Below are positions 41,343 to 47,730 of a stretch of DNA of 47,730 nt, in pieces. The stretch comes from a virus, in IMG/VR virus record IMGVR_UViG_3300009034_000064, positions 1-47,730 of that record, one strand, 5' to 3'. The position numbers and the translations under genes are program-made. Within the stretch, counting starts at the first letter, position 1. Every line of letters starts with the position of its first letter. Below the pieces are notes generated by a model. The model was not told the DNA's origin. It saw nothing but the letters and a program-made list of their open reading frames with translations, and did no database searches.

Positions 41343-42005
41343 TTATTCTATATTTTCCAGGACTTTAATTGCATGATATTTATCAAGTGTTAATTTACAT
41401 ACTTCAGATCGTATAAAATAATTCATTCCCTCAGCGTAAGGATAATGCCAAGAACAAATACCAAGAATATTTCCATCTTTATCAAATAATGGGCAACCAC
41501 TATTTCCTGCGTTTGCGGCACAATCAGTTATTATCATATTTTTTTGATGCGAATAATTATCGGGCATATTTATCGCAGAAACAATTCCTTTAGCTAAAAC
41601 AGGGAAAACACCAAATGGATTTCCTAATATCCAAACTTCTTCTCCTACAATTGCGTTATCAAATTTTGCTTTAGATTCTTTTTCAATTGTTCTAATATAA
41701 ATAATCCCAAGATCTGCTTCAGATTCTTCATACCAATTTACTGCTTTATGTCTCCTACCATCAGACCAAATAATCCAAACATCTTCGGCATTTTTTATCA
41801 TGTGTCCTGCTGTAAGAATCAAATCATCGTCTATAAAAACTCCGCTACCTTGCCAACCATATCCATACATACCTTTAACTTCGATTTTTACAACTGTGGG
41901 TTGTGAATGTGGAACTAATTCTTGATATTTAGTAATTCCGAATACTATAATTACTATAATAATCCAGAATAGGATAGATCTAATTGATTGTTTTCGTTTT
42001 GTCAT
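41343..42005 (-). CDS. Membrane-anchored trypsin-like serine protease (HtrA-type catalytic domain)
   Basis: 220 aa. Residues about 9-23 form a transmembrane anchor (ILFWIIIVIIVFGI) after a basic start. The catalytic triad is clear: LTAGHM (H68), EADLGIIYI (D98) and NAGNSGCPLF (S169), as in S1C proteases; no PDZ domain follows. The protein would face the periplasm or outside of the membrane. It lies in the virion operon near an SPFH protein, so it may act on membrane proteins or in maturation. Role inferred. Confidence 0.85.
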   Translation of the reverse strand: MTKRKQSIRSILFWIIIVIIVFGITKYQELVPHSQPTVVKIEVKGMYGYGWQGSGVFIDDDLILTAGHMIKNAEDVWIIWSDGRRHKAVNWYEESEADLGIIYIRTIEKESKAKFDNAIVGEEVWILGNPFGVFPVLAKGIVSAINMPDNYSHQKNMIITDCAANAGNSGCPLFDKDGNILGICSWHYPYAEGMNYFIRSEVCKLTLDKYHAIKVLENIE

Positions 42006-42788: not shown

Positions 42789-43015
42789 GTGAGCAATTCT
42801 CCACGATCTAACTTTTCTTTAATTCTTTTATGCTTTCCTTCAAAAAATTTAAATTTCTCGTTACCTTCAAAGAATTTACACCTATAGTTTTTGTAATTTT
42901 TGCTTTTATCTATTGCACATTTAGGTCACCACACATCCATCCAAGCCGTACTTTTTGGATTCTCGATTCTTTCAGATCCTTCATAGTGAATACATTCTCC
43001 ATAGTATTGTGCCAT
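42770..43015 (-). pseudogene. Small Cys-rich gene interrupted by an in-frame UGA
   Basis: The frame starts at ATG 43015 (MAQYYGECIHYEGSERIENP), overlapping the previous stop (TAATG), meets TGA at 42928-42926 after 29 codons, and then stays open for 51 codons (PKCAIDKSKNYKNYRCKFFE and on) to TAA at 42770. The UGA falls where a Cys of a CxxC pair would sit (UGA-Pro-Lys-Cys). Without read-through, about 140 bases of this packed operon would be empty. Either a recent nonsense change, a recoded UGA, or a sequence error. UGA is an ordinary stop elsewhere in this genome. Confidence 0.5.
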
Positions 43016-43560
43016 TATTCATCCCCCACATCATCTATAACCGTTGTAATTGGTATATTCGTTAAAACTCTTAAATTCCGTGTGGTTCCGAAATCTGTTA
43101 CGTACATACGCATAATCTTCAATCCCCATCCTTCAGCATCTTTTCTCACACCTTCTAAGATCGCTTCTCGAATACCAGAAACGGCACAATTATCATAATC
43201 ATTATGATTAATGTAATTAGCAACAATTCCCAGGGCCAACGTATACAGACTCTTATCGTAATCCTGTACTTTTAGTATCGCCTTTACAGGATCAGCTACA
43301 CGGTACATAATCCCGCCACCAAAGCACAAATCCCGACCATCTTTCGTAAACACACTTTGTGCCCGGAGATCGATTACCTGGGGTGTAACTGTGATTTTTA
43401 TACATTCTTGGATGAGGGGCCATGAGACATACCAACCGGGGGGTGTTAGCCGATACCGGCTTCCGAGGGTTACTCGTACACCGCCCTCATCCGGGTTTAC
43501 GAGCCAGATTCGGGGGATCCAGCAAAATATCTTATCTATCAGAGAACTAAGCCATTCCAT
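43015..43560 (-). CDS. SPFH/band-7 (prohibitin-like) domain protein
   Basis: 181 aa. After a hydrophobic N-terminus (LIDKIFCWIPRIWLV), the text VNPDEGGVRVTLGSRYRLTP PGWYVSWP and VIDLRAQSVFTKDGRDLCFG GGIMYRVADP, LEGVRKDAEGWGLKIMRMYV is the N-terminal SPFH domain. SPFH proteins assemble on membranes and control proteases such as FtsH, phage decision factors among their targets. A membrane protease is encoded nearby at 41343. It is the first clear gene of the virion operon. Confidence 0.8.
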   Translation of the reverse strand: MEWLSSLIDKIFCWIPRIWLVNPDEGGVRVTLGSRYRLTPPGWYVSWPLIQECIKITVTPQVIDLRAQSVFTKDGRDLCFGGGIMYRVADPVKAILKVQDYDKSLYTLALGIVANYINHNDYDNCAVSGIREAILEGVRKDAEGWGLKIMRMYVTDFGTTRNLRVLTNIPITTVIDDVGDE

Positions 43561-44180: not shown

Positions 44181-44301
44181 AGTTTCCTTTACAAATCGGC
44201 ATTTTTAGGCTCTGCGTGGGGGTTCCAAGACAATCCCCTTATAATAGTATTAGCAAAACCAATAATAATCAGACTACCCACTACATATAGTAGGTCTTAA
44301 C

Positions 44302-44641
44302 TGTCCATAGCAGATATGTAGTTATGGACACTTAACGCCCTATTACATAAAGACTTATAATCGCCGTCCATAGTGTCCATAGATTTTCTCTATTGTAGCT
44401 TATATAAATATATGTTTTATTGTTTCCTCTAATAATTTACTTGACATATATTAGTGCATATAACTATAAATATAATTACTATATAGAAGTTTATATTAAA
44501 TATCTATGGACAGCATGGACACTTAACCATAAATCCTGTATTTATAACAGGTTACCTGTCCATAGCACTTTCAAATATCTACGGACACACTGGGACAAAT
44601 TACCATAACCCATTATCCTATAAAAGTTTATCTGTCCATAG
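44302..44641. repeat. Array of TGTCCATAG repeats (iteron or operator array)
   Basis: About ten copies of a 9-bp unit occur within 340 bp of gene-free AT-rich DNA. Forward TGTCCATAG: 44302, 44374, 44557, 44633; CGTCCATAG at 44365. Reverse: TTATGGACA 44322, CTATGGACA 44504, variants at 44513, 44579 and, weakly, 44589. Two tandem pairs (44365-44382 and 44504-44521) face each other. The last copy lies 22 bp before the -35 of the promoter at 44663. It has the look of a replication-origin iteron set or a multi-site operator. Confidence 0.75.
44441..44470 (+). promoter_or_regulatory. Possible promoter inside the repeat array
   Basis: TTGACA (44441-44446) and TATAAA (44465-44470) with an 18-bp spacer, in AT-rich DNA between the two halves of the TGTCCATAG array. 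No gene starts just after it; it might make a primer or leader RNA across the repeats. Confidence 0.4.
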
Positions 44642-44662: not shown

Positions 44663-44691
44663 TTGACAGCAGACTATTTATATGTTATACT
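44663..44691 (+). promoter_or_regulatory. Strong sigma70-type promoter of the ImmA/amidoligase block
   Basis: TTGACA (44663-44668), 17-bp spacer, TATACT (44686-44691). The predicted start point is about 44698, which is the A of the mini-protein ATG, so the transcript would be leaderless. A TGTCCATAG copy lies directly upstream. Confidence 0.8.
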
Positions 44692-44697
44692 TTATAT

Positions 44698-44787
44698 ATG
44701 GAAAACCTGCTACTCTACATAATACTGATAGCGTTGGCGATGGTAATTGTCGCTGGAGTATTAATCCACATAGAGGAGAACAAATGA
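44698..44787 (+). CDS. Transmembrane mini-protein on a leaderless transcript, 29 aa
   Basis: One hydrophobic helix (LLLYIILIALAMVIVAGVLI) between MEN and HIEENK. Its ATG is about 7 bases after the -10 box, leaving no room for a ribosome site. Its stop overlaps the start of the ImmA-like gene (ATGA at 44784-44787), whose GAGGAG ribosome site lies inside it. Similar to the mini-proteins at 172 and 19889. Confidence 0.6.
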   Translation: MENLLLYIILIALAMVIVAGVLIHIEENK

Positions 44788-45173
44788 ATCTCAAACAGAT
44801 AGAGAAATTGTCGCCAGTAGAAATTAGTCGCAAAGCAGGATTATATTACGATGGCGAATATGATGCTGAGGAAAAGCATATCACCGTAGACAACAATTTA
44901 TCAGAACAACGGGAAATAATAGTTTTACTCCACGAGATAGGGCACGCAATACACCATAAAAGTGGTTGTAAATGTATAAGTCAACAAAATCATACGTTGG
45001 CAGAATACCACACTTATAGGTTTATTATGAAATTCGCAGAAATTGACCATAGGTTAATTGATGGACTAATAGAGGACGTAACGATAGGATTAAACTGTTC
45101 AAATTCTTATCGCACAGCAGCAAAACGGATAATAGCATTAAAGTCCTGGAAAAAACTGGTAGAACAGCTATAA
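44784..45173 (+). CDS. ImmA/IrrE-type metallopeptidase, 129 aa
   Basis: Contains IIVLLHEIGHAIHHKSG, the HExxH zinc motif of the ImmA/IrrE family, and a downstream Glu-containing helix (NHTLAEYHTYRFIMK). ATG at 44784 follows GAGGAGAAC. These enzymes cut repressors to switch phages or mobile elements on; the usual partner has an HTH, and the double-HTH protein at 3334 or small regulators here could be the target. No fused HTH is present. Confidence 0.75.
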   Translation: MNLKQIEKLSPVEISRKAGLYYDGEYDAEEKHITVDNNLSEQREIIVLLHEIGHAIHHKSGCKCISQQNHTLAEYHTYRFIMKFAEIDHRLIDGLIEDVTIGLNCSNSYRTAAKRIIALKSWKKLVEQL

Positions 45174-45253
45174 TGTTACCGAAACACATTTGGATATTGA
45201 CGTTTTTAGCGTATTTGTGTCTATTATAATAGTACTACTTCTCCTATAAAATG

Positions 45254-45301
45254 CCCTTGCTTGGTTTAATTAAGACCATAGCGTTCAATCGCAAGCAAGG
45301 G
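45254..45301 (+). promoter_or_regulatory. Hairpin masking the ribosome site of the next gene
   Basis: CCCTTGCTTG (45254-45263) and CAAGCAAGGG (45292-45301) form a perfect 10-bp stem. The 3' arm includes the AAGGG just before the ATG at 45305, so the stem would hide the ribosome site. It may gate translation of the three-gene block 45305-47606. Confidence 0.6.
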
Positions 45302-45304
45302 TTT

Positions 45305-45607
45305 ATGAACTGTCTAATAACAAAACAAGGTAAAGTAATCGAATGTAATGGTGGAACACCCCACGAAGTTATTTGTGTGGGTACGTTAAAAATCACGTTA
45401 AAGAAATTCTTGACGAAGCAATCAGGTATACGTATCAAAAGAAAATGGCCGAATTCTGAAGCATTGGCCATTGAGTATTATGATAAACCGTCCGAAGCAC
45501 AATTACGGGTTATTCGCAAAATACTGCGTCAAGATGATTATTATACAGTGGTGCTAAACCTACGGACGATAAGCAAGTTTCGGCCAATTAGAGGGTTTCA
45601 AGTATAA
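45305..45607 (+). CDS. Unknown protein, first gene of the amidoligase operon, 100 aa
   Basis: MNCLITKQGKVIECNGGTPH, then EVICVGTLKITLKKFLTKQS, EALAIEYYDKPSEAQLRVIR, and a Lys/Arg-rich end. Start at 45305 after AAGGG rather than 45251, because the upstream codons overlap the hairpin. It overlaps the amidoligase start by one base. Its conserved partnering could make it a substrate carrier, recognition factor or regulator; family not known to me. Confidence 0.6.
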   Translation: MNCLITKQGKVIECNGGTPHEVICVGTLKITLKKFLTKQSGIRIKRKWPNSEALAIEYYDKPSEAQLRVIRKILRQDDYYTVVLNLRTISKFRPIRGFQV

Positions 45608-46806
45608 TGCCAGAATTGATTTGCGATAATTGTAATTCTGAAATAGACGATATTAACCGTATTGACATAGACGGTAAGATTATTTGTCGCCCGTGTTACG
45701 AAAACGATTATATCGAATGTGATGATTGTGGAAAAGCTATTTTAATTGACTATGCAGAATCCTACGATAGTATATATTATTGTAATGAATGTTTTGAAGT
45801 AAAGTTTGATAGATGCTATGATTGTAGGGAAACATATCCTTCAGGTGAATTAGTCCGTTCTCATATTACGAATGAAGTCTATTGTAGAAATTGTTTTGAA
45901 GAAATTTTTATATTTTGCTATGGTTGTGAATGTGAAGTTTTTAGTCATGATGCTTATTACAATGAACATGATGGTAATTACTATTGCGAAAATTGTTATA
46001 GTGAATGTTGTGAAATAGACAGTGTTTATCATTATGATTATCGACCAGACTCTTTTACATATTATCGCAGTAAAAATGAATCGAAAAACAACAACCAAAG
46101 TAAAAACCTCTATTATGGTATCGAATTAGAAGTAGAAAACGAAAGTAATGTTGATATGGCAGATGTTGTTGATAATTTACCAGAATTTGTTTATGCCAAA
46201 CAAGATGGTAGCTTAACTTATGGTTTTGAAATTGTTTCTAATCCCACAACGTACCAATGGTTAAAAGAAAATACTGCACAATGGTTAAGAATACTTGATA
46301 TACGAAAAAAAGGTTTTCGTAGTTATAATACGAATACTTGCGGTATTCATATCCATTTATCGAAAAATTATTTTAGCAGTTTGCACTTGTATAAATTTTT
46401 AACAGTGTTTTATAAACCGGAAAATGCAAAGTTTATTCTGAGAATTAGTCAAAGAGTAAAAAGCAATTTTGACCGTTGGGCTACTTTATGTGAACGACCA
46501 AACGATAAAAATATATATTATAAAGCAAAAAACAAAACTGGTAACTTGGAAAGATATAGTGCAATTAATTTGCAAAACCCACATACTATTGAAATCAGGA
46601 TTTTTAGAGGAACTCTTAACCCACGTAGTTTTTGGAAAAATATAGAATTTCTACAAGCAATAATTGATTTTACAAAAATTACATCGTTAAATGAAATTGA
46701 CGAACCACACTTTTTGACATTTGTGTATAACCGCAAACAAGAATATATCAACCTACACAACTGGTTATGGGATAAAAAGTTTTATGAGAATAGCTTGAAC
46801 GAATAA
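45607..46806 (+). CDS. Amidoligase-family enzyme with N-terminal zinc ribbons
   Basis: 399 aa. Residues 1-135 hold many CxxC pairs (CDNCNSEID, CRPCYEND, CDDCGKAI, CNECF, CYDCRETY, CRNCFEEI, CYGCECEV, CENCYSEC), several LIM-like zinc ribbons. From about 168 comes the amidoligase core: YYGIELEVENES, KQDGSLTYGFEIVSNP, TCGIHIHLS, and INLQNPHTIEIRIFRGTLN. These GIELE, GxExVS, HxH and ExRxF motifs mark putative ATP-grasp-like/glutamine-synthetase-like carboxylate-amine ligases. It would join a carboxylate and an amine at the cost of ATP. The amidotransferase gene follows at once. Confidence 0.8.
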   Translation: MPELICDNCNSEIDDINRIDIDGKIICRPCYENDYIECDDCGKAILIDYAESYDSIYYCNECFEVKFDRCYDCRETYPSGELVRSHITNEVYCRNCFEEIFIFCYGCECEVFSHDAYYNEHDGNYYCENCYSECCEIDSVYHYDYRPDSFTYYRSKNESKNNNQSKNLYYGIELEVENESNVDMADVVDNLPEFVYAKQDGSLTYGFEIVSNPTTYQWLKENTAQWLRILDIRKKGFRSYNTNTCGIHIHLSKNYFSSLHLYKFLTVFYKPENAKFILRISQRVKSNFDRWATLCERPNDKNIYYKAKNKTGNLERYSAINLQNPHTIEIRIFRGTLNPRSFWKNIEFLQAIIDFTKITSLNEIDEPHFLTFVYNRKQEYINLHNWLWDKKFYENSLNE

Positions 46807-47606
46807 TGTGCTTAGCTATATTAAAACCTGCCAATGAACATATTATAAAACGCCGTTTACGTCAAGGTTTTCAAGAAAACCCCGATGGTGCGGGTTTTAT
46901 GTATGTTAAAAACGGTCAATTAAAAATAGATAAAGGTTATTTTAGCTTTCGCAGTTTTTACAAAGCATATCGACAAGCAGAACAAAAGTGCCCTGATAGC
47001 AATTTTGTTATACATTTTAGAATTGCGACATCAGGGAAAATTTCTTCAAAGCATTGTCATCCATTCTTAATCAATACAACTGTTGCGTTTGTTCACAACG
47101 GTATATTCGCTAAACTTGGTAACAAAGTAAAATCAGATACACAACATTTTAATAATGATTATCTACGATATATGCCACCAGATTTTATCCATAATAAAAA
47201 GTCAATAAGATTTTTAGAAAAATACTGCGGTTGGTTTAATAAACTAATTTTTTTGAACAACAAAAATGAATATTTAATCGTAAATGAATCGGCTGGACGA
47301 TGGTTAGATAATATTTGGTTTTCTAATATCATTGAAACTTCAATCGGTTTTAGTGTTACAACTAATTATGCCACAGAAATAGAAGATAACGATTGGGGTG
47401 AATGTGCTATTTGCACAGGATATTATCCAACTCAACAAATGCAAGAAACAGAAAACGGTCAAGTTATTTGTGAATTTTGTTTTACAAAAAAATTTGGTGG
47501 TTTTCGCCAAGAAGTATGTTACGGATGTGGACAACTTCTTGATATTTATGATACTGGTGATGATTGTCCATACTGCGGAGCAGATTTGAAATACAAGGTA
47601 GTTTAA
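46806..47606 (+). CDS. Class II glutamine amidotransferase-like protein with C-terminal zinc ribbon
   Basis: 266 aa. N-terminal MCLAILKPAN leaves Cys2 as the N-terminal nucleophile after Met removal, followed by NPDGAGFMYVKNGQ, NFVIHFRIATSGKISS, FVHNGIFAKLG and KSDTQHF, the core motifs of Ntn-hydrolase glutaminases. The C-terminus has CAICTGYYP...CEFCF and CYGCGQLLDI...CPYCG zinc ribbons. It could release ammonia from glutamine for the amidoligase or cleave an amide product. Overlaps the ligase stop by one base (TAATG). Confidence 0.8.
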   Translation: MCLAILKPANEHIIKRRLRQGFQENPDGAGFMYVKNGQLKIDKGYFSFRSFYKAYRQAEQKCPDSNFVIHFRIATSGKISSKHCHPFLINTTVAFVHNGIFAKLGNKVKSDTQHFNNDYLRYMPPDFIHNKKSIRFLEKYCGWFNKLIFLNNKNEYLIVNESAGRWLDNIWFSNIIETSIGFSVTTNYATEIEDNDWGECAICTGYYPTQQMQETENGQVICEFCFTKKFGGFRQEVCYGCGQLLDIYDTGDDCPYCGADLKYKVV

Positions 47607-47611
47607 TACCC

Positions 47612-47730
47612 ATTGACCAAACTTCGGTCATTACAACTAATCCTACGCAGCCGAATTTTTGTCCGATAATAGAAAATCGCTATTTTTAACATAATTTTGA
47701 TTTTAGGTATTGACAAAAGAAAACAAATTT
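47612..47730. repeat. Direct terminal repeat, right copy
   Basis: Identical to bases 1-119; see the left copy. Joining the ends gives a 47,611-bp circle. It starts five bases after the stop of the amidotransferase gene, and its opening GACC/GGTC hairpin could weakly terminate that transcript, although no U-run follows. Confidence 0.95.

Follow-up and report, generated by a model that had tools for sequence, protein, structure and literature searches.

We propose that two overlapping genes near the right end of a phage genome encode the subunits of a glutamine-dependent, ATP-driven amidating enzyme, whose substrate would be a carboxylate group of a macromolecule bound through zinc fingers, and we give this reading a probability of about one half. 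The genes encode an amidoligase and a class II glutamine amidotransferase (GAT-II) and lie on the plus strand at 45607–46806 and 46806–47606 of the record IMGVR_UViG_3300009034_000064, a single phage genome of 47,730 nt that is referred to here as the window. The pair is confirmed, and it is widely distributed among phages and gut bacteria. It is also of an already described type, as the amidoligase/GAT-II pairing is known in direct relatives, the phages Marvin and MEP401.

Comparison of the two ends of the window revealed an exact terminal direct repeat of 119 bp (left copy 1–119, right copy 47612–47730). With the same 119 bases at both ends, the contig appears to be either complete or circular, and it is probably a complete genome. 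Replication genes (DNA polymerase, primase, exonuclease, and a Sak4-like protein) are on the plus strand and packaging and virion genes (terminase, portal) on the minus strand, and the pair is placed immediately before the early plus-strand genes. The G+C content of the pair (45607–47606) is 0.30–0.32, as against 0.36–0.37 in the rest of the genome and about 0.37 in the other large genes, which suggests a separate origin. Two minus-strand genes upstream of the packaging genes (41343–42005 and 43015–43560) encode a trypsin-like serine protease and what looks by eye to be a membrane protein of the band-7/SPFH type, an arrangement that is unusual in a phage.

The first protein of the pair (399 aa; 45607–46806, plus strand) contains the GIELEVE, GFEIVSNP, CGIHIHLS, and EIRIFRG motifs from which the first-pass annotation had called an amidoligase, and this family assignment is confirmed by a match to Pfam PF12224 (Amidoligase_2; E 4e-9) at 37.1 bits, above the curated cut-off of 22, and by an AlphaFold model (pLDDT 92.5) with the predicted fold of the glutamine synthetase (GS) superfamily. 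Foldseek searches of the PDB with this model returned two groups of structures, that is, tandem LIM domains (PINCH LIM4-5 as the best match, and LMO2) over the first 135 residues and YbdK, glutamine synthetase, GmaS, the Pup ligase PafA, and Dop over the remainder; the TM-scores are low, partly from the two-part chain, and the E-values modest (1e-4 to 1e-3), with the superfamily consistent throughout. The GS-fold ligase domain spans approximately residues 167–385 (46105–46761, plus strand) and is marked by the motifs GxExE, DxxxxxxxE, GxHxH, and ExRxF. Among 219–220 aligned pairs, G171, E173, E175, E208, G246, H248, R283, E329, and R331 are invariant, and D200 (218/219), H250 (217/220), and F333 are nearly so. 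These motifs presumably correspond, in the same order and with the same spacing, to E129/E131, E212/E220, H269/H271, and E357/R359 of Salmonella GS, and we take the conserved residues to be the ExE, E-x7-E, HxH, and ExR sites at which GS binds metals, substrate, and phosphate. Judged from the sequence, the predicted active-site set, of the glutamine synthetase/GCS/Pup-ligase type, is complete.

The amidoligase stop codon overlaps the start of the second gene (TAATG), whose product (266 aa; 46806–47606, plus strand) contains the MCLA, HFRIATSG, VHNGIF, and SDT motifs that had led to its annotation as a GAT-II. The best match in a single-sequence Pfam search was GATase_4, below the cut-off (E 8e-4; 18.9 bits vs. 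23). A profile built from 51 family members matched the glutaminase domain of Escherichia coli GlmS (1xff) at E 2e-13 and PurF at 1e-9, and the relatives from Clostridia exceed the GATase_6 cut-off. The AlphaFold model (pLDDT 87.2) has the expected fold, with Foldseek ranking GlmS/GFAT first, then PurF, and then EgtC, including EgtC in complex with glutamine or its natural substrate, so that the earlier assignment is upheld. The predicted Ntn-hydrolase glutaminase domain, which begins with the N-terminal Cys, comprises residues 2–178 (46809–47339, plus strand). C2 is invariant wherever it is aligned, and ATG followed by a Cys codon opens the gene in 220 of 230 relatives; H70, R72, T75, H85, P86, H97, N98, and G99 are present without exception across 220 pairs. 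D111, which is present in the protein of the window, is aligned in 177/220, with the alignment being poor at that position. We take the conserved set to represent the catalytic Cys, the oxyanion Asn-Gly, and the Arg that holds the glutamine carboxylate, and D111 would presumably bind the glutamine amino group.

Both enzymes carry multiple zinc sites, as had been noted from the sequence, although the term zinc ribbon fits only the last finger of the GAT-II, the models showing five treble clefs besides. In the amidoligase, eight CxxC motifs (C6/9-27/30, 38/41-59/62, 70/73-93/96, and 104/107-127/130) make up four tandem LIM-like fingers of the form CxxC-x17/19-CxxC (residues 6–130; 45622–45996, plus strand), which are supported by the motifs, the model, and Foldseek. 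Each is modelled as a hairpin followed by a helix that begins in the second CxxC (H28-34, H60-66, H94-100, and H128-135), and a profile search reached LIM structures at E 2e-7. The fold is thus similar to that of LIM domains, whereas the linkers are of seven residues rather than the canonical two and the Pfam LIM score is 19.7 bits vs. 22.9. At the C-terminus of the GAT-II, four CxxC motifs (200/203-222/225 and 238/241-254/257) are predicted from motifs and model to form a treble clef, with its helix at H223-230, and a zinc ribbon (residues 200–257; 47403–47576, plus strand). Most members of the family likewise have zinc fingers. The CxxC count of the amidoligase ranges from 0 to seventeen, with six and two being commonest, whereas the fingers of the GAT-II are optional and found in only part of the family; the co-distribution of fingers between the two proteins is weak. 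Fingers three and four of the amidoligase are almost invariant in a 59-member alignment, a result that is partly selected since members were mostly picked for having at least three CxxC. At the upper end of the range, loci L075, L081, and L082 have 16–17 CxxC, that is, about eight zinc fingers, ahead of the amidoligase.

Relatives of the pair were not detected by single-sequence scans of viral contigs and were found by alignment-based searches. The GAT-II alignment identified 461 related viral stretches, the best 80 loci of which were kept, and the amidoligase alignment identified at least 476 viral stretches (best 79 loci kept) and 329 in bacterial genomes (best 80 kept). With the GAT-II query alone, an amidoligase was recognised just upstream in 77 of the best 80 of 461 loci; of the other three, one is truncated where its contig stops, and the remaining two carry, in the corresponding position, an ORF of 448–449 aa that may encode a diverged amidoligase. 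With the amidoligase query alone, a GAT-II is the next gene downstream in 74/76 viral loci that extend far enough to include one (from the best 79 of at least 476) and in 73/79 bacterial loci (from the best 80 of 329). The pairing is therefore nearly obligate, as the first-pass annotation had expected of related phages, and neither of the two findings that it had named beforehand as speaking against it, unrelated folds for the two proteins and a pair that is not kept together, was obtained. Where the two genes meet, they most often overlap by 1 nt (TAATG, 42 cases) or by 10 nt (31) or are separated by 1–3 nt. Exceptions to the pairing include tandem amidoligases before the GAT-II in L196 and L207, and phage AR1086-1, L217, and L235 have amidoligases with no adjoining GAT-II. 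Evolutionary distances between amidoligases correlate with those between GAT-II proteins (r 0.78; 0/500 permutations) among loci that are not independent, many of those from marine phages and Clostridia being close kin; the correlation fits a long shared history, would be predicted by co-inheritance alone, and does not prove contact.

Further observations concern the surroundings of these relatives. No third gene is conserved near the pair in all related loci, and the neighbors are lineage-specific, being replication genes in marine phages and a DUF960 gene and a serine recombinase in Clostridia. The DUF960 protein is encoded just upstream of the pair in 33 Clostridia loci (e.g., L208 and L244, within L170–L245), and a CcrB-like large serine recombinase is nearby, mostly downstream, in about 36, so that the setting looks like an SCC-type mobile element. 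Strains of Ruminococcus flavefaciens have several copies of the pair each. Two amidoligases are present per block in L007, L008, L009, L196, and L207, with L008 also having two GATs, suggesting either several substrates or a heteromeric enzyme. The closest relative of both proteins (46–51% identity) is in L166, a contig of 45 kb that had been binned as a Lokiarchaeota MAG and in which the pair is flanked by SSB- and DnaB-like genes; it is probably a misbinned phage.

The first-pass annotation also gave the block its own promoter and a third protein, of which only the former was borne out. A sigma-70-type promoter-like site (TTGACA-17-TATACT with extended TG; 44663–44691, plus strand) has 11/12 consensus matches; the number of promoter-like sites in the region is about that expected from shuffled sequence, and it is only the strength of this one that stands out. 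Directly upstream of it, an intergenic array (44297–44641) contains the motifs CTGTCCATAG and CTATGGACAG in both orientations, arranged as 22-nt inverted pairs and 40- and 49-nt direct pairs, and is operator- or iteron-like. Downstream of the promoter come, in order, the gene of an M78-like metallopeptidase, an orphan ORF, and the pair itself. The metallopeptidase (ImmA/IrrE-like, HEIGH motif; PF06114, E 1e-6) is assigned to 44784–45173 on the plus strand within a longer ORF at 44682–45173, since the position of the promoter requires that it begin at the internal ATG at 44784 rather than at 44682, and this start is also supported by a ribosome-binding site (ggag). A protein similar to the full ORF is found in one related locus only (L090), with a HEFGH-type ORF seen also in L089. 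On this account we rejected the peptidase as a component, and it is probably outside the system. The orphan ORF (118 aa, or approximately 100 aa if started at 45306; 45251–45607, plus strand) is joined to the amidoligase gene by TAATG. Its product has no match in any family library and no relative in any related locus fetched, and we therefore also rejected it as the third subunit that had been suggested.

In the mechanism that we favor, the two proteins would form a complex in which the N-terminal Cys of the GAT-II frees ammonia from glutamine and the ammonia is passed to the amidoligase subunit, which would use ATP to phosphorylate a carboxylate, giving an activated acyl phosphate, and convert this to a carboxamide. 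The LIM-like fingers at the amidoligase N-terminus, together with the smaller GAT-II set, would grip the target. If zinc fingers hold the target, it is probably a macromolecule (a protein or a peptide-bearing precursor) and not a free metabolite; a DNA-associated molecule, which was among the targets first suggested, is not supported. One locus, an exception to the usual pairing, bears on glutamine-fed amidation in both directions. In L220 (1674–3845), a single continuous 723-aa frame holds both domains with the Met-Cys internal, reflecting either loss of a stop codon with an internal start or a true fusion. The in-frame joining of the two speaks for the model, whereas the internal position of the Cys counts against it, since translation would have to begin within the frame or the protein be processed. 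The few amidoligases that lack an adjoining GAT-II and the incomplete alignment of D111 also count against it.

GAT-II folds also act as gamma-glutamyl hydrolases, as in EgtC and Dug3. The pair could accordingly work like EgtA/EgtC of ergothioneine biosynthesis, in which a GCS-fold ligase works with an Ntn partner of GAT-II fold: the amidoligase would link a glutamate side chain to a target amine and the GAT-like hydrolase would remove the glutamyl group or relay it, with no supply of ammonia. The amidoligase model matches YbdK (GCS2 group), the GAT-II model matches EgtC too, and the best single-sequence Pfam match of the latter is to GATase_4, which we take to be the group containing EgtC and Dug3; related phage and prophage cassettes, moreover, contain a gamma-glutamyl cyclotransferase (GGACT). 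The conserved Arg and Asp would hold a gamma-glutamyl group equally well, and because both substrates present such a group, conservation at these sites does not discriminate between the readings. However, the ammonia donors GlmS and PurF rank above EgtC by both profile and fold, and GGACT was not found in this genome by a search whose control was positive in nine genomes. EgtC also differs in being a gamma-glutamyl hydrolase of a small-molecule pathway and in having no zinc fingers. Given that the GAT-II is closer to GlmS and PurF, we favor glutamine-fed amidation and regard a scheme like that of EgtA/EgtC as rather unlikely.

Glutamine-fed amidation would itself be compatible with a target in the cell wall. 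LtsA/AsnB and MurT-GatD amidate cell-wall precursors, and a phage enzyme that amidated or cross-modified peptidoglycan stem peptides could bring about superinfection exclusion, causing competing phages or lysins to fail. The multi-gene relative of the LUZ24/phiEco32/PSA-HP1 type has indeed been called an anti-superinfection peptidoglycan modification cassette, although that role is itself a prediction (PMC5498523; PMC10580990). Zinc fingers, however, suit a protein or nucleic-acid ligand, and homologues of the pair are found in mycobacteriophages, in phages that infect Gram-negative methylotrophs, and in genomes of Clostridia, whose walls are very different; we hold a cell-wall target to be rather unlikely. 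That the genes are inactive, decaying, or associated by chance is refuted in practice by their intact frames, invariant catalytic residues, more than 200 paired loci, and confident models, the slightly lower G+C content of the pair pointing to a separate origin only.

The pairing of amidoligase and GAT-II has been reported in mycobacteriophage Marvin and in Methylophilales phages, with superinfection exclusion or secondary metabolites suggested as roles (PMC10580990). In Marvin and its cluster relatives (gp105/gp106), a homologous amidoligase (28% identity, E 8e-14) is directly followed by a homologous GAT-II (25% identity, E 5e-11 over 95%). CxxC motifs are present in both proteins, and the genes are near the genome end; the identity is only 25–28%, however, the CxxC motifs are fewer, and the upstream gene is another one. 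MEP401, MEP402, and their marine relatives likewise have a homologous pair with overlapping genes and a GAT-II that is 39–40% identical, but the amidoligase has an N-terminal stretch of approximately 300 aa in place of the finger array and two CxxC only, and the GAT has no fingers (PMC10580990). A larger peptidoglycan modification cassette is described from the podoviruses LUZ24, tf, phiEco32, RIO-1, and PSA-HP1 (PMC3890496; PMC5498523). The LUZ24/phiEco32 cassette shares the PF12224 amidoligase and class II GAT and adds a COOH-NH2 ligase, an ATP-grasp ligase, and a gamma-glutamyl cyclotransferase. LUZ24-type amidoligases gave no match at E 1e-3 in a protein search and are thus distant. We rejected a full cassette of this type for the present genome, in which the two cassette enzymes searched for separately, GGACT and COOH-NH2_lig (the latter without a positive control), were not found. 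YbdK, glutamine synthetase, GmaS, PafA, and Dop share the fold and active-site layout of the amidoligase at approximately 9–15% identity in structural alignment. To our knowledge, none of them has zinc fingers or a GAT-II partner. The PADLOC models of anti-phage defence gave no significant match for either enzyme, and we found no biochemistry or other experiment on any member of the pair or the cassette in the literature. The amidoligase/GAT predictions reportedly originate with Iyer in 2009.

To these predictions we add two points. Members of the family generally have arrays of zinc fingers and are strictly paired, although we do not claim the finger architecture as undescribed; and the pair is able to exist in the absence of at least two further enzymes that belong to the larger phage cassette. 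As to the benefit for the phage, the least forced guess is an altered host surface or host protein that acts against competing phages. More tentatively, we suggest that the pair may be a self-contained carboxamide writer, a zinc-finger-targeted, glutamine-fed relative of the Pup-ligase fold that would amidate specific host proteins during infection and that is also found in gut Clostridia on recombinase-bearing elements. If the proposed mechanism is true, it would represent a compact and widely spread means of converting acid to amide, with the target chosen by zinc fingers, on phages and mobile elements. Being small and complete, and occurring in culturable phages (Marvin on Mycobacterium smegmatis) as well as culturable bacteria (R. 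flavefaciens), the pair makes a long-standing prediction of comparative genomics directly testable.
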